A DNA stretch of 64,000 nucleotides. Source: Owenia fusiformis. Taxonomy: Eukaryota > Annelida > Polychaeta > Sabellida > Oweniidae. The position numbers and the translations under genes are program-made. Of this stretch, positions 230-64,000 are shown piece after piece (position 1 is the first letter of the stretch; every line of letters starts with the position of its first letter). Below the pieces are notes generated by a model, which was not told where the DNA came from, searched no databases, and was given only the letters and a program-made list of their open reading frames with translations. The stretch covers positions 32,480,166 through 32,544,165 of the forward strand of contig CAIIXF020000011.1 of NCBI GenBank assembly GCA_903813345.2, read 5' to 3'.

Positions 230-3200
230 GTCTGTCATAGTTAGAACCCTAGATAAAATATAGTAAAGTTCGCATATTTATACATGTAGTTCATTGTTCT
301 TTGATAATCTCCATTTAATTTATTACCCAGACGGTGATTTTGATATAATCATTGTCACAAAGGATATGTACTGTTATTTGCTTCTGAGTACCAATATGAA
401 TAATAATGCTGATTTTACATAATATTATACTAATAGATAGAATGAATAGCTAATTGTATCATAATCGAAGATTACTGCCCAAATTATGCTTAGCTTTTCA
501 TGTGACTTAAAATCATGGCACATTTAGAGTTTATAATTGGATAGAAAATAATAATATAGAAACTTATTAGAAGACATAACATCAACTACATAAGGGTGTC
601 TGAGAGACTGGGCCCCAGGGTCAGAATTTTTCAGAATCTAAATCAGGGAACTCTTGACTATAAGAGTTAGTAATCAGGGAAAAAATTAGGAATCAAGGAT
701 TCTTGCAAAATAACTGATATAATTTTTCATAGGCCTCTGTTGTAACCCCCGTCATAAAATAATCATAAAAATAATAAATTCTCTCAATAATGTAGTTAAA
801 ATATTATACATGTACTGATATTATTACATACATGAAAATAGGCATTTTAAAAATTATAATAGGCATTTTTGGCTTTATGCAATTTCTATAAAATCTGTAA
901 AATTGGGTTCCCTCCTGAAGAGAACTGGCCTGCAGTATGCATATATTTTGTATTCTAGGGCACAACACTCAAGGGCCGCAAGACCATGTCTAAGGAAAGT
1001 GTCAATGTGGGAGAGGCAGTGTTTGTCCCATGTGTGTCCCCAGCACGCCCCTATAGTAGAAGAAGCACCACAGCTACCAGCTCGCAGTTTGAATGCTCAG
1101 AGTCAAGCTATGAGAGCACATCACATAGTGCTACAGGTATATTCATTGGAGCTCATATTTCTCAGGAATTTTATATAATTTTAAACAGGTTAAGAGAGAA
1201 TAATGGGTTACATGAAAAAGGTTTTACTATATATGAAATCCCTCAGTGATGTCCCCACTGTGAATGTAAAGTATCATGTGAAGTTTAACTGATATATTTA
1301 CAGTGTTTTGGATATTTTTACTCGGATTACTCAGAACTCTCCAGTTCAGAAAACTGCTGAAGCACATTCCTGTATTCCAACATTGTGTGAAACTAAATTT
1401 ACTCATATGTCTAAATGATTTCAGATTGTTGCCATATAAGGAATTACTATAATTATTCCCAAAATTTTATTTCTGATTTAGAGTCTACATACCAACCCAG
1501 TACTCCACGAGATGGCGCTCATGGCAGAGTTGCACCCATCTCCGTTGCAGCTGTCAAGAATAGACAAGACATTGCATCAAGATCACTAGGCTCTGCCCTA
1601 TTTCCCGATGAAGACACAGAAGAGGGGATATTCCATACAGAGGTTTTGCTAGCTGTACAGCGGTGGTTCTCGTCCCAGGGATGGCCTGGGGGCCCCCACC
1701 CAATATTTGTCCCACACTCTCTTAGAACGTAAGTGAAATGATATTCACAATCTTTATGAAAACCATTTAGAAATCTTTGTTGCAAGTAAAATTTTATATT
1801 AAAAAATACTTGTATAATTCATGTATAATATGTATATATTTGAAGGGAATATGATATTTAATGAATTGATAAGCTGCATTTTTATTATCATTATAGATAT
1901 TATTGATCTAATTCTGCCTAACATATATCATACATTAATTTATCTGTTAATCAGTGGCATATGCAAGAAACCTCCTGAAGATGGAACCCCTAAAAAGAGA
2001 GTTGGCAACAGAGTACTAGAAGCTAACAATCTTAACAGAGAGTTCAAGACTGTCTATGACATGATAGCTCATCTCTGTGGCCGGCAAGTTCCAGGAATCC
2101 CTATTAATTCTCCCCTTCCATCTGACCCTGAGGAGAGAGCTAAATATGTTCATTGGATGCACTCAACTCTGCTGACTTTCTTAAAGTAAGTGTTGCTGCC
2201 AGTCGATGAACTGTTTAGATGTCTTCTTTTCATAAAATACACAATGTAAAAGTGTATTATTTGTACTGTATCAATTTTCAGTAAATTATTGATTTGCTTG
2301 TGTTAAAGTTAACGTGAGAACAAACTTTTGATCCTATCATTAGTTCATTTATGAAGCATGATATATTTAAACAGTTTGCATGGATTTTTGATATGTCCTT
2401 GTGTAAATATTATAGGAATAGTTGTACAGTTTTGAATGAGGATGTGTTCTTGATGATGTAAATAGGATTTCAAATGTACACTAAAGAAATGGAATAGATA
2501 TGTATAAAACATACAACAATGTTTTTCATTTTTTATTCAGGAACCAGGGAGCCTGTGTTGCTGCAGTAAAGCCTGAATATCTCATGGAACCTGCCGATTA
2601 CAAAAGGTGGATAAAGCTCCAACAGGACCTAGAGGCTGCTAAAGGTTAGTTTTTAAAGTTGGCCTTTTGGGATATGTGTGGGAACCAGTTGCACATGGTG
2701 TCTGTATACAAGTTCATTTGTTTAAATGGCTCGGTTAATGAGATAGTTGACTCATTCTACCTTTCTACTTTAAGTGTTACAATGATAGGAAGTGACATAT
2801 TATGCTATGAGTAACGCTTTTTTAGGTCAATTCTAGAATTTGAAAATTATAAAAATTAAAGGGTATAGCATATTACCTTCCTAAATGTAAAAAATACAAT
2901 GTTTACCATAGGAAAAGATGGCGTTAGTGAGTACAAAGTTATAACAGAGGAGGACCAGGCAATAGAAGATGAATTATTTGAAGCTGTGTCTAAACGAGCT
3001 TGGGTCGACATTCTGCTGCAGATACTCAAGGTAAATGAATTAAAGTGCTCTACATTTCTTTTTGTAATTATTACTTATCGTTAAGAATTAAGAAAGTTTA
3101 CAATTGAATTTGATAATAAACATGTAAGTTGAAAATTCATAGAACAAATATAGACTCGAAATAGCCAAAAAATTAATTTTAGAACAAAAATATCTCATGT

Positions 3201-6200
3201 AATTCAACCTGTATTGGAAATATTATAGATAAATAATAAATGTTGCAGATGTTTAAACATATACATTGATATTTTTTCAGATTCTGGTCATGGGTAGAAT
3301 CACACCCCGTCAGTTGAAAAACATGCCAAACCCAAACAAAAACATTGAGATGCCTACAGTGAATCCTGACCCCCTTTGTAGCAACATCTACTCTGTGGGG
3401 GAGAGAATAATCCTGGCATGGCTGAACCACCATTATGAACAGCAGAGATATAATATATGGCAGAATTGCTCAAAAGGTGGAGTGCCACCATCTCGCTGGA
3501 TCGTGAACTTTGATTTTGATTTACTGGATGGGTTGGTGTTGGCCGCAGCTTTGGGAGCTCATCTTCCCTTTTTGGTAAGAATAAGTTCTGGTGATATTTA
3601 ACAAAATATTTTGTTTTATTTATTCTTTTATTTATCTTATAAACAAAATAAAAAATTACATTCTTGATTAAATAGCTAATAGATTTAATAATGTGCTGAA
3701 ATTCAGTTTAGGATGTTTTAAAGCTAGATGAACTTCTGATTCTTAAATCAGTCAATGTTACCCAAAACAGATATATTTCAAGGCCCTATTATAATATATC
3801 ACCAAGCACATATGGCAACATTTAAAGACCAGAAATGCACCATAAACCATATGAACTGATAGCACCAAAAACTTAAATGACTTGAATCATTTTCCAGGTG
3901 AAGACCCACTTGCAAGACATGTACACTCAGCCCAACACAGCAGAACAGTGTCTCCACAATGCCCTGAAGCTTGTGAATGCTTTGAGATACATCGGGATAG
4001 ACTATGATATACAGGTAAAATATACAATATAAAGTGAAATCCATTTCATGTTTTTACTATGTTCACTTTCTCTTTTCAAGCTCCACGGCATAAAATCCAC
4101 GTTGTATTGCCATTAATCTACAGCACCAATTTTTCTTATATCAAATTACTTACTGATCAATATCAAAAGTTATCTAATTTGACCCCATGTTTTGGTGCAT
4201 GTCATATGTAAATCATATTGCGATTGTGATTTTCTGAAGTCTTTAAATCTGTTGTTTATCACGTTTTCATCATTATTGATTAAAGCTCACTTAGTGTAAT
4301 GTGTGCAGTAAAGAATAACCTTTACATAGCGAACAATTTAAAAATGTTCACATTACATTGACTGCTAATAAGCATTAATAAAATTCAGTACATTACATAA
4401 TTTCTTGTGTATGATTTCAGGCCATAGATATCACAGACCCTAACCCAATATCTCTGATGTTACTAGTGGTCTACTTGTACCAGAAGTTGCCTCAATACTT
4501 ACCTAAGAGTAATTTGGAATTTGTCAGTAGTCTGCATTCTACTGTTATGAGACAGGTAAGGGAAAGGTTCCCTGAATACTTCTCTAATAATCATGGGTTA
4601 GAATTTGTGATTTTGCTACATGAATGATAATGGAAATTCAGAAATTGTGATTTATGAATTTTTGAGGATTGGCTCACTGGAGAAAAAGTTAAAGGAATGA
4701 TTGAAAAATTCCATGTTGAATCATGGCCAACATTTAAACATTTGGGCCAACATTTGTTTTTTTTACTTAAAATTTTTTGTTAAAACCTTTTTAAAGTTAT
4801 GTCATTATAGTTTACATTTTCTTTTTTTATTTCTTTTTCTCATTATTTTTGTGGATGGTGCTTGGTGTTCGGCGGCCAGCGCCTCACAAATGGCAGGTTG
4901 TAACATTTTGCATGTTAGTGCTTTGTTGATATTGTGAGCAAATAACCTCCTTGTGTAAAATCATATTTATTTGATTATTTCCAGGTGAAACTGAGCAACC
5001 CTAGTGGCAAACCACTCACCTACCATGTCTTAATAGCTGGCCATGATGCACAAGATTTCTCCACTCCTAAGGGAGATACAGTTATCATTGCACCAAAACA
5101 GACAATTATGTTGACAGTCGAGTTCACAAGTAGATTCTTACGTCCTGCTGAAGCTGTGCTCGTCCTGGTTGGTCGTAGGGCAGGCTCGGCTGTTGGATCA
5201 ACACTTGTGTTCAATCTACGAACTACGATTGATAATATATCGCCAAAGGTAAGGAGTGGTTCAACCCCAAATGACATGATAAAGTGAACAGATATTTCAA
5301 GAAATTAACTAAAAGAAGTTTTGAACCTTAAAACATTATGTACTTTTAGCCATTTATTTTGTTTTGGAAATTATTTTTATTTTTATTTAAAAAATTATAA
5401 TTTGCCTATGCTTATTATTTCTTAAATGAATGTAGCTTTACACGGTCTTCCTTTTTCAGACTACAATCAAATGCGAATCTCCAGCATATGAGTTAACAAA
5501 TGTACCAATAGATGTCGAAAACCCATTCAATGAGGCTGGCGACTTCAGAATTGTTCTCGTTGAAGCCAAGAGCATTCTTGGAGATACAAAAAGTCCAATT
5601 TTCAAATCTCCAGAAAAGAAAACTAAAAAAGTGCGCTCTAAGATTGATAATGGGAAAAAACGTGCTGAGACACCAGAAGAGAGGATTTCTACCAAATCTA
5701 AAAGTTTATTAGATGTCCAGACTGAGGCCAATCAAGGTGAGATACAAGCTCTCAAATAATTAGATGAAATAGTAACATGTTGTGAAGTACACATATTATT
5801 TCTTTACTTGTACATAATTAATTCATGGAGTATCTCTGAACTTATTGTACCCATCTCATTAGAACTCTTCACTTCTTACCATTTTTAAATCTGATGGGTT
5901 TTCTGTCTCATGGATAGAGTTCACCTTGAGGTCAACTGTACCTCCACTTCTTACCATTGTTAAATGGTCTCTCGGTATATTACAGAAGATGCGTCTAACC
6001 TGATGAGTGCCTGTTTCTGTCCCATGGATACAGTTCACCTGGAGGCAAATGGTACCTCAACAATCGAACTCCACTTTTTACCATTCCACACTGGCAAGAG
6101 ACAGTGCTCAATAATATTCATCAATGAGAAAGTAGGAGAGTTTTTGTACTCGATTGAGGCGAATGCAACATTGCCGTTATCATCACCTCTGCCACATAGG

Positions 6201-15200: not shown

Positions 15201-18200
15201 CAATCCAAACAAAAGTCACACTCACAAATTGATTATGATTTAGTTTTGCATCTACATACAGTATAAACCTACTAAAAATGACCTAAGTCTAATAATAGTT
15301 TAATTTTTTTAAATAGGGGCTGATGTTAATTGAAAATTTGTTGATGTGCAAATTCAATGTACATTTCAGGACAGAATTAGTTACGGAAATGATTTCTAGA
15401 TAATTTGGTGTAGTCTTTAGATATTAAGGGGAACAGAGTGATACAATTTGGCATCTATTTGCACATGATGTCAATAGCCAAGCCGCTAAAGAGTTAGATA
15501 ATCTCTCTACGTTCATACCTGGCAGACTTGAACTCTTTATTTAGACTGTCATCGAGTATACTTGTCAATTATACAATTATACTCAAGACATGTTATTCAA
15601 AAATAACCAACCACAGGTTCAAATCCAGGGAAATGATCAAGATTAGTTAGAATTTAAAAGCATATGCAAATTCAAGAAAATTATGAAAACTGTAATATAC
15701 ATTGACAACTTCATTGCTATAATTTGATGTTATAGGTGGTCTCGACAGTTTATCACTCTGAACAATCCAACAGATGATCCTTTGGAGTTGTTCCCGACAA
15801 TCTCAAATACAAACAACTTCAAACTAGAGCGAGACAGTGAGCGCCCTCTATTAATACGTCCACACACTTCAATCCAGGTTCCATTGAATTTCATGCCATC
15901 TACCCTCGGCCAAGGAGACCATGCTGCAGAAATAACATTCTACTCCGAGAAGGTACATTTTAGTTATATTATAACTCGTAGCATATCAAATAATTTGACC
16001 GAGATAGTTTTTGATTATAATTAGATGCAATAATATAGTTTAGTTTAGTTGACAGTTAAATGTAGTTTAATAGAGGATATTCTATAGCTTTTGAGGGATA
16101 TGTTCATCCACACTACAAGTGAATACGTGTATATCTACCAGGAAGGAGATATAGGCCTTCATCACATTCTTATGTGGATATTAACCATATCCTGAGAAAG
16201 TTCTTTTTTATTATTTATTTGACCTAATCCAATGTATAACAACCACTTATATCTTGATTTTTTATTATTTTTTAGCTGAAAGAGGTATATTTTGATTTTT
16301 AATAAGGCATATTTGCACTGGGTTTTAAAAGGTTTGAAATGCTGGCTTTTTAACACACACTTGGCTTTTTATGGTTTGGGTCTGCGTGCCTACACTGATT
16401 TGCTTTGGCATTCAATGTGCAGATATACAAATATATGTATATAACAAATTGAGAAAAGCAAAGTGAAATACAGGAGTTGTTTAGCACCATGAATTTTTCC
16501 TCACCTTAAGATAATAGGTACATGTATATTGTATATCTTCTACTTATTTACATGTAGAGGGAAATGAGGATGAATAAGCATTTTTAATTAAATAACTGAG
16601 CACTATTATTGTGAGATTTTCATGCACACTTTAAATGGGGTTATGTAATATCATTGTTGGCTTCATGCCTCACCTATTTGTGTTTGCCTCACCTGTTTTG
16701 GGATCCTGGCTATGCCTGTGATTTGTGTGTTTTCCATCAAGTGGCTGATCAACAGGTCAAGGTCATGTGGAAGAGTCAAGGTCACCAAACAGTCATGAGT
16801 CAAATGTAGGCTGGTATAAGTTACTTTGTAGATGTCATATTTTAAAGGTCAAAAAACATGAATGGCAAAAATACATTCCTACTTGACTATATCACTCATT
16901 TATTGATCAAATACATAAATGCAATTTAACAGAGTGTAATTTATAACAGATCTCCTTTCTAACAAGAAATCATCGCTACAACTGGCCGTAACCAGATACA
17001 TTTTCCATGTCATTGTCTGACTATTTAACATTCACATATATACATAATAGATGATCCCTGGCAAATGTGAGATCTGGGGACGCTCACAAATAAAACCTGC
17101 TAGGGCTGAGCAATGAATATACACCCCATTTATAATCCTTATTGTGCCATAATGCAATGCAGTGGTCATCATCATTTGGAACTGGTTCATGATCACCCCA
17201 CGCAAAACATGTTGCACTTATCCAAGATCCAGTCCAGATGTAGTCATTTGCCACAGCTCTGTCATTGAGGCCAACATAATAGTATAGATCTAAAAAATAT
17301 GAAATCATATATGAGCACAGCTTGGTCATTGAGACAATAGGGCATCATATGAACAAAATAAAATTGTTAACAGAATTTGGACATTGAGGCCACGATGTCA
17401 CAATTAAGGTCTTTAATCGAATGCGTATTACTCCAAGTTGATTTAAGACCTTTGATCTGCTTATCTTATCAATTGTAACAAAGGCCTTAATTTCATGAAA
17501 TTGGGAAACTTTTTATATGCTGTATACTTTATATCTTACCTTGGCCAAAACTCAATACATGGTTCACCAATGCTGTTTGTTCACCTTCTGTCTCTATGGT
17601 AACAAGATGTGCCCCATACTCAAGGCATTCATACTCTGCCGATGTCCAATTTATATACCTTGTGTTGAAGCAATAAGCTGAGCCGCTGTAGAGTGTTGTA
17701 TTAAAACCTCCTTCACATTCTTAAAAACAAAATTCAAAGATTATGAGGCCTCAATTTGAGGAGCTTGAATAGTAAGTAGTTAGGGTTATTTTTGAAGACA
17801 AATGTCAAAACAGACATGCTCAAGAAATTTAGTGAAGGTAATGCTTAGTTTGAAATGAATTTTGATTCTGCAATTGAATTTCTGGAAAACTTGAACTCTA
17901 AACGCCTACTTTTGTTCTCTAACTATGTTATACATCATTATCATCCTTCTGTGCAAGTACTGGAGCGCTGAATTACTTCCTTTTCGATCAAGACTTGTAA
18001 TTGTTAGTCGAGTGAATGTTTTTACTGCCGAATTCCAATATGGCATTTTCTGCTCGGACATTTTCGTGAATCTCCGGAGGTTGTCCGAACCTAACTAATT
18101 CTCAAAATTCATTTTGTTCGTTGCGTATCTCGCTCCTAGCAAACCGCCATATTGGAAATAGGTCTAAAAAACATTCACTCGATGAACAATTTACAAGTCT

Positions 18201-21200
18201 TGATCGAAAAAGAAGTATTTCAGCGCTCTAATACTTACACGGATTGATGATACTGATGTAAGACACAGTTAGAGACCAAAAGTAAGCCGCTGATCGACTT
18301 AATTCGATTTCAAAGGTCACAATCATTCAGCTGTCCAAATGCTCCGTAGGAAAGCTATTATATCAAAATCCAAATAGCTCTCGCAGGAAGTAAGATGAGA
18401 ACACATCCGATCAATGTGTACTGTGTAAGAAATTAATATATCCTCATTTCATTGTCTTGAATATGTATTTCTCACCTCTTAACTTCATGGTGTAATGGTG
18501 ATGGTCTGGCCTGCTTGTTTTCGTACCTGTACCTAATCCAAACAAATCACATTTCCATGTTGTCTTTGTCACTTTTTCAACACTTGTCTGGACACAATTG
18601 GTTGTTTTTACACATTCTTCATTGCACTCCAACTGGGAATGTGTTACTGTGCTTCTTAAATGCCCAATCTCGGGTATCATGTTGTCGGCTATAAATTGCT
18701 CATTTTTTGTTTTGTAAAATAAGTCTGTAATACCAGTGGAATTCGAACTATCTGCTATAGAAATGTTTGTTGTCATGGAAATGAGGATGATGATTAAACA
18801 AAGTATTATTTTCCTCATATTTGAATCATTTAATTCCATATCATGATTCTGTTCTTTATAGACATGTATGTTATTCAGCTAATGAATTTTATTTTATGAA
18901 CAATTCTTTCATTTTGAAATTATATGCGTTGTCTACAATTCTACCATTTAGACAAAGTATTTCCATTTGATATCTACATGACCTAGACTGTCAGCTCTCA
19001 AATCAATTGTACTACTCAGTAAATGCAATTAAATCTGTTTACACATCTCTCGTTTCGTCATATGAAGTGCAAAAAGGAAAGTGAAATCGCACCAGGCATC
19101 AACTACAACAATATGAAAGTCATTATCACACTTAACTTAACTATGTTCTAATAAGTATATATTGAAACAATTTGATTATCAGTACATTTTATAGATTTTC
19201 TTCATTTTTTCTATTTGACAAACCTTGTAAAAGCTTGGACATGGAAGTGCTTTGTCCCATATAATGGGTCTTGAAATAAGGCATTCAAATCAACCCATCA
19301 GTGTCAGGATATTGGGATGAAAAATATTGGGATTTTAAAAGTACTTTTTTGTTACAATTAAAGGAATATTTGAAGAAAATCAATTAGGCAGAAATCTTGA
19401 AACATGGTCAGAGATAAACATTTTGAAAAGGTGCTCAATGATATTATAATGCCTTTCAAAATGCTTATCTCACCATGTTTCAACAATATTTGTGGCATTT
19501 ATTTTCATCGAATTGCCAATATTTTTTTCCCTATATCATGACATGTATAAATCTTTGAGAAAAAATATGATTTTTGTTTCTCTTCGACATTTACTGCTTG
19601 GTATTATCACATTTTTTGGTAGCGAGAATTAAAATTTTTTTGAGCCTAAAATATATTTTATCCTGAATAATTGTGGATTTGAAAGAATGATATATTGTGT
19701 CTTATCCACTGATTTTGTCTGCTGAGAAATTCTCTTCTTTTGTGACACATGGTTGATTGATCATAAAACCACAATCAAATGTGCTAAATGATTAAGAAAA
19801 AACTGCTTAACAGCTTAACATTAGACATGTATTTACAGCATAAGAGGTATTATCCAATTTTTTAATTTCATATTTTTTTAGAAAAGAAAGGCTGAAGAAC
19901 TATTGTTTCGACATAGTTTTTAAACACTAATAATCAATTCTATTGTTTTAGATGTTTTACTATTTCTAAAAAAAATATTGATTATGATATTGCAATGATT
20001 AATGCAGAAGGTTTATATTTTATTTGAAACTTGCATTAAGAGACCTGAGATCAAATTTTTCACTTGAGATTGATTTTCCCATTTTTTGTACAAACATTAT
20101 CCAAACAAGTGAATAGTAGAAATACTCATTATTATTAGTTGTTGTAGTCAGCAAAATCAATGTCATTGAGAGGTTTCTCTTTTTTCATAAATGTTTGATT
20201 TTTCCATAAAGTCTGATTCTCATCACAATCAAAAGCTAAGACAGTGGATGAAGTTGAGGTAAACTTACATCTTAATAAATTATGACATATTACACATGCT
20301 AGATATATGTCGATATAAAGTCTCATATAAGAAATACTGTATCATACCTTAGTATAGTTTTTATTTGGGACTATTAGCTTTTCCATTAATAGCTATCTAA
20401 ATAATGCTCACAAATAAAACCTCTTTTAAGAGAGCATGAAATATCAACCCATTTATAATCCTTATTGTGCCATAATGCAATGCAGTGGTCATCATCATTT
20501 GGAACTGGTTCATGATCACCCCACGCAAAATATGTTGCGCTTATCCAGGATCCAGTCCATATGTAGTCATTTGTCACAGCTCTGTCATTGAGGCCAATGT
20601 GGTAGGCTCCACCTAAACATATATATGAAATCATGAACTCAGCTCTGTCATTGAGGCCGATGTGGTAAGCTCCACCTAAACATATATATGAAATCATGAA
20701 CTCAGCTCTGTCATTGAGGCCAATGTGGTAGGATCCACCTAAACATATATATGGAATCATGAACTCAGCTCTGTCATTGAGGCCAATGTGGTAGGATCCA
20801 CCTAAAGATATATATGAAATCATGAACTCAGCTCTGTCATTGAGGCCAATGCAGTAGGCTCCACCTAAACATTTATATGAAATCATGAACTCAGCCCTGT
20901 CATTGAGGCCGATGTGGTAGGCTCCACCTAAACATATATATGGAATCATGAACACAGCCCTGTCATTGAGGCCGAGTTGGTAGGCTCCTCCTAAACATAT
21001 ATATGGAATCATGAACACAGCCCTGTCATTGAGGCCGATGTGGTAGGCTCCATCTAAACATATAAATAAAATCATGAAAACAGCCTGGTCATTGAGGCCA
21101 ATGCGGTAGGCTCCACCTAAACATGTATATGGAATTATGAACTCAGCTCTGTCATTGAGGCCAATGTGGTAGGCTCCACCTTAACATATATATGGAATCA

Positions 21201-24200
21201 TGAACACAGCCCTGTCATCGAGGCCAATGTGGTAGGCTCCACCTAAACATATATATGGAATCATGAACTCAGCTTTGTCATTGAGACCAATTGAATTTGG
21301 TAGTATAGATCTGAAGAAATGCATCAAAATCATTGAACATGGTGAGGCAATTGTATTCTCTGTGGCTTAATTTTTGCTTTGACTATTTAATCCTGGGTTC
21401 CCCATATTGGATCAAAGATTCTAATGTTAACTTTGTATCATTCATTGCAAAAGTTCTAAAATGATTCATGTCTCACCTTGGCCATAAGCCATTGCATAGT
21501 TTACCAAAGCTGTTTGTTCACTTTCGGTTTCTATGGTAACCAGATGGGCACCATATTCAAGGCATTTGCTTTGGGCATCTGTCCAGTTCAGGGATCCTTG
21601 GTTGAAACAATAAGCAGAGCCACTGTAGAGTGTGGTATTAAAACCTCCTTCGCATTCTGAAAAAACAAATAGAAATTAAGTCAAAATAAATAATGTAAAG
21701 GTGGTGAGAGAGATTAGGGAGTTTAAGCTCGAATATAAAATCGAAACGCCAACCTAAACGTATGACCAAATCGCCCATACAAATGCATCACTTAAATAAC
21801 TTTTGTTTACGTTTAGGTTGTGAAAAACAGTGCAAGCTTAAACTCCCTTATGATTAAATATACAGTTAAATGTTTATGTATACTTTCTTTGACAAAACTC
21901 ACCATTAAACATCATGCTGTAATGATGATTGCCTTGGCTGCTAGCTTTTATACCTGTGCCCAATCCAAACATATCACAATTCCATGACATGTCTGTTAGT
22001 TTTGCAACGTTTGTCTGGGCACATTTGCTTGTTCTTAAGCATTGTATGATGCACTCTAAAGGGGAAAATGTTACAGTGGTTTTTAAATGTCCTTCTTCGG
22101 GTACCATGTTGTCCGGTATGAATCGCACATCTTTTGCTTTGTAAAATAATTTGTCAATTTGACTAAAAGAATTCAGACTCTTCGTTTCAAGAATGTATGT
22201 TATTATGCAAATTGTGATGATTAAACAAAGTATTATTTTCCTCATATTTGAATCATTTAAATTATAATTCTGTTCTGTGCTAGCATACACTATACTTCGT
22301 GGACACCATGCACTAATAAACTCATAATTTGAATGATTCTTTCATTTCAAAACTATGCTCTTCGAATGTCCCATTTAGACTGAGTTAGACTCTCTCACTA
22401 TCAGAAGCAAAATAAAAACAAACAGTAAATCCTCTATTGGTAATTTGGTAGAGATTTGAGTCAGTTGATTTGAAGTTATTTCAAAGTTATGCAATCAAAT
22501 CTGTTTACACATCTTTTTATATCATAAAAGGTCCTAAAAGGAAAGCAGGTTACACAATCATCATATTTCAGAATCACCGTGGTAGCTAATAGGCCTATAC
22601 ATAAATAATATATAATTCATTATCACTAATGGGTATATATTTTAAAGTAAGATTCTCTCATAACCAATCTCGCAATTATTGATGCTCTATTAGCTTTTTC
22701 CAATTTTTTAAACAATAAGCAGTAATATCTTTGAATAAAAAAGGTTATACAATGGCCAGGATTGTACATGAACTTCATCGTTCCCAATTTTTTCTTTTTA
22801 TCCCACCACCACAAGTGGTATTGCTATAGTCTCCTACTATCAATTTACATGTGTATTTAGACACAATTTGATTTATTTATGACTGAAATAACTGAAAGTG
22901 TAATGATTATGAAATAAGATGTTCTTCTACTCAAACATGAATTTCATGTTTAAAGACTTTTGTTTATTTTTTGCAGCTTGGAGAGTGGAAATTCTATGCC
23001 TCTGGGACAGGATTGCTTCCTCGTGTACAGGACCCTGTTAGTATAAACTCCCCTGCTGGGTCTAATGCAACTTTGATCATACCATTCCGTAACCCTCTGG
23101 ACCATTCTGTGCTCGTTGATGTTATATTAACAGGTATAGATTACGAACATATTTAATGTTGTGATGATTTCAATATTTTTTCATTATTTTTGTTATATTT
23201 TCTGTGAATATTATAATAAATAGTAAAAATTCATGTCATTAGGACCTCCCTTCCCTATCTACTTTACCAGTGTTGTGTTGTGTTGGTGAAGTACAAAGGG
23301 GGGGGGGGGAGGGTTGTACACAATCTTGAAGCAAAACTATCAAGTCATGTTCTATCTGTGACATACATTTCCATTTATATTTCGTTTACTGCATGCAATT
23401 TTCAACAAATATTCACTGTTTTTTTCTAGACAAACAACAGCAGTGGGAGAAAGTTTTCAAGAATGGATTACCACACGACTCACCATTCTGTCTGCTACTC
23501 AAGCACAGTAATGGCATCCGCCTAGGCCCCAAATCCACCTTAGATATCCCTGTATCATTTGCCCCTGAGGAGATGAGTATGTTTGAAGCACTCTGTGTTG
23601 TTGCTGTGAGGAAGGAAGATGGAGGCAGTTGGCATTATACACCAGTGGATGATAGGGGGTATGTTGAAATTAATAGTCATATATAAAAGTGAGAAGGGCA
23701 TAGTGTAGGATAATTTGAATCTAATGTTTATACAGTAACATTACTGAGGGTCATGACACAGTGTAGGGTATATTGAAATTAATGTTCATATATCGGTAAA
23801 GAAGTTTGGCTTTGCTTGTTAGTAAGGGGGTGGCATGAATTAAATGTTCCTTTTTTATGTCAACACCACAAGTGTTGACATATTGTGACAGTCTCCAACT
23901 AACCTATTTGTGGTGGCGGTTGGTGGTTGGTGTTTTGCATTTGGCAATTGGTGTTTTGCATCTGTAACAAATAGCAAGTGGTGACATTTTGCAGGTTATT
24001 GCCTAGTTTCAAATGTGGTTACATTGTATATTTCAGAAATCGTCTGCCAAGGAGTCGTAGCGGAGGTTTACATGAGATCCGCTGGTTGTACCCAATAAAT
24101 GGTATTCCAGAGGTTGAGGCTGTTAAAGACAATCAGGGTGCCATCATAGAATGCCAGGCCAGAGAACGTGTTGAGGAAAGACTAGAGGTAGTTCACTTTG

Positions 24201-63100: not shown

Positions 63101-63512
63101 GGCAACCCAGCATTCACATGACAAAATGTCACCCCCAGCTGCAATTACAAAATGTAACAATTCGTTACAAATGCTGAACCATAATGAGGAAAATGCCACA
63201 GAATGACAGTAACAAAAAACAATGGCTCTAACAATACATGTTGATGATGACAACAAATGAGGGAAACAGTGGATAGAGGAGGAGAGGAAGAAGGGAAAGT
63301 GAAATTGAGCTACATATAGAGGGATGAGATAAACAGGAGTTCAATCATGGAATCTTACCTAGTCCATGGTAGAAATACTGCAATAACATTGAGAAGCTGA
63401 TGATTTCAGATGTTGTTGGTACCAATGGGGACTCTGTCTCAAATGATGGCGCATCTGTCATGACATGATCTTGGAGGTTATCACCCACTGGTAGGTCAGC
63501 AACCACAGGAAT
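60176..63512 (-). CDS. GMC-family FAD oxidoreductase (choline/glucose dehydrogenase-like), C-terminal part
   Basis: Six exons: 63512-63359, 62480-62113, 61675-61498, 61057-60968, 60634-60502 and 60308-60176; 1,056 nt = 351 codons plus stop, all phases consistent. The 5' exons with the FAD-binding GxGxxG lie beyond the right edge. In order: [14 protein letters not shown] (GMC family signature region), [14 protein letters not shown], a hydrophilic repeat insert, [29 protein letters not shown], and the catalytic-site motif [10 protein letters not shown]. The end has [20 protein letters not shown] and [20 protein letters not shown], where H of YHPVG and N of GNTNA are the expected catalytic pair. 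Substrate (choline, glucose or other) cannot be decided from this half. No membrane or targeting signal is visible. Confidence 0.9.
61785..61921 (-). repeat. ~150-bp dispersed repeat, inverted copy
   Basis: 'aaaggcattaacatgcaaat', 'tgtcaccacctgcaatttg', 'gagactatagcaatatgtc' and 'acttttgttggtgacata' align with the family. It lies in a GMC gene intron, and is followed by a short direct repeat 'tggctaaaacatggagaggt' (about 61984 and 62031). Confidence 0.65.
62194..62382 (-). repeat. nine 21-nt coding repeats (heptapeptide NKQxxxE) in the GMC gene
   Basis: Nine tandem seven-residue units with K-Q at fixed positions: [63 protein letters not shown]. It inserts about 63 polar residues between the hydrophobic YLASPVML segment and PDVQYFAAS, a loop position where GMC enzymes usually have only a few residues. 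Confidence 0.9.
62515..63030. repeat. 95-bp minisatellite, five copies
   Basis: Landmark 'actgrgttggattgaatat' occurs near 62521, 62617, 62712, 62807 and 62902 (period 95-96). Units contain 'ggcaatatgatattgatcaa'. The last copy decays into 'atatcaagrtcaatatca' repeats. It lies in the GMC gene intron. Confidence 0.92.
63090..63176 (-). repeat. diverged copy of the ~150-bp dispersed repeat
   Basis: 'cattcacatgacaaaatgtc', 'acccccagctgcaatt' and 'tgtaacaattcgttacaaat' resemble the family's 3' half. Confidence 0.4.
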
Positions 63513-63760
63513 CTATAAAACAACCAATGATATTACACAGTGGGGGGGGGGGTCTCAAAGGATGGCGCATCTGTCATTACATGATCTTGGAGGTTATCAC
63601 CCATTGGTAGGTCAGCAACCACAGGAATCTATAAAACAACCAATGATATTACACAGTGGGGGGGGGTCTCAAAGGATGGCGCATCTGTCATTACATGATC
63701 TTGGAGGTTATCACCCATTGGTAGGTTAGCAACCACAGGAATCTGTAAAACAACCAATGA
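63436..63760 (-). repeat. ~115-bp triplication of a GMC exon's 5' edge with its splice acceptor
   Basis: 'gtctcaaakgatggcgcatc' starts at 63436 (the true exon), 63552 and 63666. Each unit runs through the first ~75 nt of the exon, its acceptor (ataaaacaacc on +) and ~35 nt of intron, then a poly-G run. Units 2 and 3 lack the 3' half of the exon and a clear donor. Confidence 0.9.
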
Positions 63761-64000
63761 TAGTAACTACTGGTAGCTGACCTGTCATTATTACATGAGC
63801 TTATACTATGTATATGTGATCAGATATTCACTAATGGGTTGGATATAAGAATGCCCTAATGAAGCTAATACATATTGAGGTTATTTATAGATACATACAT
63901 GTAAGGTACATAATGTCCCCAAAATGAGAGATGAATAAAAGGGTTGTAAAAAATTATTCACAAAAATTCCCAATAGACCCCCAATACATTGAGTTCTCAG

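Follow-up and report, generated by a model that had tools for sequence, protein, structure and literature searches.

A minisatellite spanning an intron-exon boundary in a C-type lectin gene of Owenia fusiformis

The stretch of Owenia fusiformis DNA considered here (the window, 64,000 nucleotides (nt) in all, to which positions refer unless stated otherwise) contains a small C-type lectin gene, termed gene B, which lies on the minus strand of contig C11 and has three coding exons. Between exons 2 and 3 there is an array of head-to-tail units of 63 nt, each consisting of 27 nt of the intron 2 end, with its AG splice acceptor, and 36 nt of the exon 3 start. Judged by its sequence, the array is a mirage in the anatomical sense, since it is a tandem repeat which crosses an exon-intron boundary and carries splice signals inside its copies. 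It is most likely a neutral minisatellite of this type, with splicing mainly to the proximal acceptor at 20612. An earlier note on the same DNA had offered two readings, a ladder of alternative splice acceptors producing lectins of different lengths and a neutral expansion in which the proximal acceptor is used, and this interpretation is partly supported. The second reading is favoured by codon tests with neutral outcomes and by the rejection of exon-like constraint; for the first, the splice signals are present but positive evidence was not found, and the chance that such an array would be both in frame and open is about 0.22.

The array and its lectin gene

The main features of gene B are as follows, the exon ends having been set from homology and sequence rather than from complementary DNA (cDNA).

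21904..22245, minus strand: exon 1, an open reading frame encoding a cysteine-bearing N-terminal region with a putative signal peptide (recognised by eye)
21477..21656, minus strand: exon 2, ends placed by reading the sequence, donor CAAG/GTGAGA in phase 1
20577..21269, minus strand: mirage-type array between exons 2 and 3, 11 units of 63 nt, defined by two repeat finders and unit alignment
21144..21206, minus strand: unit 9, in which a TTA to TAA change in the intron part places a stop in frame with the product of acceptor 10
21270..21332, minus strand: unit 11, a diverged distal copy with its first exonic base at 21310, out of frame and reading to TGA
20386..20612, minus strand: exon 3, the terminal coding exon, encoding the second half of the C-type lectin-like domain (CTLD; open reading frame and Pfam), with 20612 as first exonic base if the proximal acceptor is used

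The conceptually spliced protein matches the Pfam family Lectin_C (2.6e-15), its N-terminal region being without a Pfam match, and a phmmer search against PDB gave as best matches the CTLDs of the phospholipase A2 receptor, an IgY receptor and mannose receptors. The exon 3 acceptor occurs at a similar place and phase across the paralogues, and the earlier note had both the proximal acceptor, 20612, and its phase, 1, right.

Tandem Repeats Finder (TRF) described the array as a period of 63 bp with 11.3 copies, a match of 91% and 0% indels at 20577-21291, while a second repeat finder gave 12 register positions at a spacing of exactly 63. Eleven units, numbered 0 to 10, are in register and carry an acceptor, and the boundary within them was located by comparison with paralogues rather than cDNA. 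Their intron parts resemble intron ends of the paralogues and terminate in TTTAG, or TTAAG in unit 9, while the exon parts code for GGAYHIGLNDRA or a close variant. AG is retained in all 11 units and in the distal copy, and most units show AG/GT at the boundary. The distal copy lies 698 nt from the proximal acceptor (a remainder of 2 on division by 3) and its exon start, read by eye as CAG/ATCTATACTA, is like that of exon 3 in the neighbouring paralogue, gene A. Thus the array as described in the earlier note is partly confirmed: of the twelve in-frame copies reported there, eleven are in register with an acceptor but the twelfth is diverged and out of frame, and the unit is regular in length but not exactly repeated, different units being identical at 51-61 of 63 positions. 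When the 498-Mb genome assembly to which the window belongs was searched at the DNA level with three of the units, the 63-nt array was found nowhere else, although such searches may miss repeats.

Coding constraint and splice acceptors

Substitutions among the 11 units were counted as a minimum, each derived state once. The 23 substitutions are distributed over codon positions 1, 2 and 3 as 6, 10 and 7 (p = 0.57), and their density is 0.36 events per site in the exon part and 0.37 in the intron part. Silent changes make up 5 of 13 in the exon part, where 26% would be expected without constraint, and one stop is seen where 0.91 are expected. The real exon 3, compared between genes A and B over 52 codons, gave a ratio of nonsynonymous to synonymous divergence (dN/dS, omega) of 0.16, estimated from only 9 changes; other comparisons yielded 0.19 (B and C, a further paralogue), 0.16 (exon 2, A and B) and 0.58 (exon 1, A and B). 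Under an omega of 0.16, five or fewer silent changes would be seen with p = 0.02 in the exon part, and with p = 2e-5 when the whole unit is counted. These p values are weakened by homogenisation between units, owing to which the events depend partly on one another, and 23 events carry limited power; within that power, the units do not appear translated and constrained as protein. Since the codon tests look neutral and an omega of 0.16 is rejected, the array behaves like non-coding DNA. A coding repeat under selection was considered and discarded on the lack of codon-position bias, the lack of a silent excess and the rejection of exon-like constraint.

The outcome of splicing to each acceptor was examined conceptually. 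Exon 2 joined to any of acceptors 0-9 keeps the lectin frame to the stop codon, with 0-189 residues added, while products of acceptors 10 and 11 reach stops after 20 and 16 residues, respectively. The earlier claim that the array is mostly open and could add n x 21 residues in frame therefore holds for 10 of the 12 acceptors but fails for the two most distal. Given a random local linker, a unit of 63 nt would be open with a probability of 0.66 and, as one period in three is divisible by three, the joint chance of being in frame and open is that of about 0.22 given above. We infer that the in-frame, mostly open state follows from the 63-nt period and an open 27-nt linker rather than from selection. 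Automatic annotation would risk calling a spurious 264-codon exon across the array.

Acceptor strength was scored with a matrix based on 31 acceptors belonging to this lectin family, a small and homology-placed set which is illustrative only. Units 0-10 scored 3.6-7.7, within the leave-one-out range of the family acceptors (1.5-16.5, median 9.1, n = 31), and the distal copy scored 0.9, below that range. For comparison, 90% of the 540 minus-strand AGs in the 14-24 kb region of the window, the array's own included, scored less than 3.0.

Origin of the array and other boundary arrays

Gene A occupies 17.1-18.7 kb of the window and carries a trace of the same structure, defined by alignment:

17253..17333, minus strand: decayed unit copy of gene A at 17297-17333, followed by the real start of its exon 3 (first exonic base about 17289)

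The decayed copy has the same junction of exon start and intron end as the units of gene B. A unit aligned to the gene A intron alone scored 35, a value reached by 0 of 2000 shuffles of either type; weaker tests were a score of 52, which included the real exon start of A, and a self-comparison score of 26 against a shuffle maximum of 27. Because gene A shares this junction, the first duplication took place before the unit was amplified in B. The earlier note had taken the single decayed copy as a sign that the expansion is recent; the copy is there, but the initial duplication preceded the amplification. The duplication may either predate the split of A and B or have moved between them by gene conversion. 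Exon 3 (17126-17281 in A, 20449-20604 in B) is 94% identical between the two genes with a dS of 0.20, and exon 2 is 78% identical with a dS of 0.93; gene conversion of exon 3 between A and B is thus a possibility. In B, the 11 units share an exon start which differs from the A-like start of the distal copy and, to the eye, the start of its exon 3 may have been exchanged through turnover of the array. Near the end of its exon 3, at about 17100-17125, gene A shows an apparent one-base frameshift (by eye), the protein match ending at 17126; this may mark A as a pseudogene or reflect an error of sequencing.

For paralogues C and D (L008 and L009), GCCTTAATGAC occurs about 47 nt before the start of the match, with a motif test p of about 0.004 for each. 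When the whole unit was compared with the C and D introns, 34 and 35 of 300 shuffles scored as high, which is not significant, and these traces do not establish an older origin shared with C and D.

Boundary-spanning minisatellites recur in this genome, none of the others seen being a ladder that preserves the frame. Exon 2 was surveyed with TRF in the best 26 of 32 related-lectin matches, A and B included; the numbers of related loci, here and for exon 3 below, are lower bounds. An array of 80-nt units across the exon 2 acceptor was found in 9 of the 26 loci, of which six are genes on C4 and three are counterparts on C346, and was absent from L039 and L040 (C4) and L038 (C346). The copy numbers on C4 are 25.9, 20.0, 40.0, about 26 (13.3 + 12.6), 41.0 and 3.9, flanking sequence having been fetched for five of the six. 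A lectin cluster occupies C4:31.79-31.94 Mb (L030, L032, L035-L037, L041, L056 and L058-L061), with C346 counterparts L031, L033, L034 and L057.

The 80-nt period shifts the reading frame, and none of 151 upstream acceptor positions leads to a product that is open as well as in frame. These positions, taken whether or not AG is kept, comprise 132 plus 19 from gene g041 and include 5 from g031, the counterpart of g030. AG is kept in 104 of 113 units, a count which leaves out the C346 copy g031, the gene g041, where the register was shifted by two, and 19 units with a step other than 80 in the five genes counted; in g041, checked separately, it is kept in 19 of 19. As the AG ranks 43 of 79 dinucleotides, its conservation is unremarkable and was rejected as a sign of function in these arrays. 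Length changes between units are absent from g030 (25 of 25 units) and g041 (19 of 19) and present in g036, g035, g037, g032 and the C346 copy.

One of the 80-nt arrays has 25.9 copies on C4 and 18.8 + 6.5 copies on C346, with a 1308-bp stretch between the two parts. An apparent allelic change in copy number at this array (6.5 against at least 19.5) was discarded, since the flanks revealed 18.8 + 6.5 copies on either side of this stretch and hence no clear change. The interruption lies at 2584-3890 of the joined, oriented L031/L057 stretch and has an AAATA-rich tail, the C4 counterpart being uninterrupted; by eye, its reading looks reverse-transcriptase-like.

An array at the exon 3 acceptor was found by TRF in 0 of 18 loci besides A and B, among 35 matches. 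L018 carries at 1633-2182 an array of 111 nt x 5 which starts in the final coding part of lectin exon 3 and runs through the stop codon into the sequence beyond. In L022 (584-1394) a long array of 15-, 30- and 45-nt units (ATTGGGTTTCGGACC) lies in the intron before lectin exon 3 and ends about 100 nt before the acceptor. Within the window, at 63436-63762 on the minus strand, three copies of an acceptor plus exon start occur 114 and 116 nt apart, with C runs between the units. They belong to a GMC-oxidoreductase-like gene, of which three pieces of neighbouring exons match GMC_oxred_C, while a 51-residue piece is without a Pfam or PDB match. By its sequence this array is another mirage within the window, and it is out of frame.

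Competing readings and relation to known repeats

The preferred course of events starts from a tandem duplication of the intron 2/exon 3 boundary, from which 11 regular copies arose in gene B, probably through slippage or unequal exchange involving the direct repeats. As 20612 is next to the remainder of exon 3, the spliceosome would mainly use this proximal acceptor and the upstream copies would leave with intron 2, any occasional upstream use being noise. Some observations weigh against this account. The proximal acceptor is not distinguished from the upstream copies by its sequence score. Moreover, there is no indel between the 11 units. Near-identical paralogue pairs have indel to substitution ratios of 0.20 and 0.27, from which about five to six indels would be expected (nine pairs of greater divergence have 0.50-0.84), and their absence could hint at frame keeping. 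The absence of indels was not accepted as proof of frame keeping because arrays in which frame is irrelevant also lack them, among them the 80-nt arrays of g030 and g041 and an array of 25 nt x 25.8 in the L017 flank (match 88%, indels 0%).

The reading nearest to the preferred one, and overlapping with it, is tolerated splicing noise, in which upstream acceptors are used at a low level and a minority of longer or truncated products arises without function. It is possible, if doubtful: the acceptor scores are similar, and competition among neighbouring acceptors is established. Against it, amphioxus mirages are reported not to disturb splicing (PMC3087553, PMC3902484). A true splice-choice ladder, in which acceptors 0-9 are all used and the WIGL-type strand of the isoforms is preceded by n x 21 added residues, is unlikely. 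The in-frame open products of 10 of 12 acceptors, the similar scores of units 0-10 and the lack of indels speak for it, as does the alternative splicing that can result from human internal tandem repeats at exon-intron boundaries (PMC2812944). It is opposed by the lack of visible codon constraint, the truncated products of the two most distal acceptors, the chance of about 0.22 for an open, in-frame array and the sister 80-nt arrays, which cannot work in this way. Decidedly unlikely is a broader version, in which the number of acceptors would set the splicing of secreted lectins like a heritable dial, the array of B giving up to ten in-frame isoforms and sister arrays of 20-41 copies tuning or aborting expression through frame-shifting splices.

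An assembly artefact in copy number is very unlikely. The array occurs at one place only, leaving no second copy for comparison, but there are differences between most of the units, and only 0.7 kb of a 37-Mb contig is taken up by the array. Finally, the array could be a long coding exon, reached by splicing to a distal acceptor and always translated as 21-residue repeats. The open frame of 264 codons agrees with this, but a constraint like that of the real exon is rejected for the whole unit (p = 2e-5) and acceptors 10 and 11 read to stops, which makes it extremely unlikely. The neutral minisatellite, spliced mainly at its proximal acceptor, remains the favoured reading.

Mirage minisatellites have been described in amphioxus, in Adh3, the globins BflGb6 and BflGb9, PGBD5 and troponin C (PMC3087553, PMC3902484). 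In BflGb6 the 3' end of an intron and the 5' part of an exon are duplicated, one haplotype having 6 units and another 3, and reverse-transcription PCR of Adh3 and globin suggests regular splicing even though many copies hold splice signals (PMC3087553). PGBD5 carries 60- and 108-bp arrays, Adh and troponin C being cited alongside (PMC3902484). The present case differs from these in concerning a lectin family, in which two different acceptors bear arrays and the copy number rises to 41. For the amphioxus mirages, regular splicing and allelic length variation have been reported, whereas the lectin array is known from its sequence. Among marker proteins sought in this genome, GFP, COX1 and bindin gave no match, the searches for GFP and bindin having had no positive control; a tektin exon was closest to PDB 8snb, from sea urchin, with 307 bits against 264 for the next entry, and so leans to sea urchin rather than vertebrates. 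A literature search of limited coverage, over titles and the beginnings of abstracts, found no mirage outside amphioxus, which is weak evidence.

Similarities to other systems are partial. Human internal tandem repeats in segmental duplications are likewise minisatellites at gene boundaries in duplicated genes, with possible alternative splicing, but they have transcript support whereas the lectin array is known from DNA (PMC2812944). The prawn Rlec genes also belong to the C-type lectins and carry tandem repeats divisible by three; their 30/33-bp repeats lie in an exon, however, while the units of gene B include intron sequence and lack coding constraint (PMC7536079). NAGNAG and other short tandem acceptors share the competition between in-frame acceptors, but there the AGs are 3 nt apart, and the array, with 63 nt and a whole acceptor region per unit, is not of this kind. 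Tandem duplication of AGGT has been implicated in intron gain (PMC4974935) and the AG/GT of most units is a potential source of new intron ends, but no sign of a new intron was seen at the lectin array.

Taken singly, the locus adds one more case to a repeat type already known. Its added value lies in the setting: one lectin family has gene-boundary arrays of three periods (63, 80 and 111 nt), and in one of them a whole acceptor region is present up to 41 times. This may also lie beyond the animal group from which mirages have been described. Such arrays constitute natural experiments on how the spliceosome settles on a single acceptor when many nearly identical ones are offered, and genes carrying them may be misread by automatic annotation.

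On the plus strand of the window, an exon at about 22980-23130 resembles CFAP47 (PDB 9ijj, E 1.1e-7), and the lectin genes may lie inside an intron of this CFAP47-like gene on the opposite strand.

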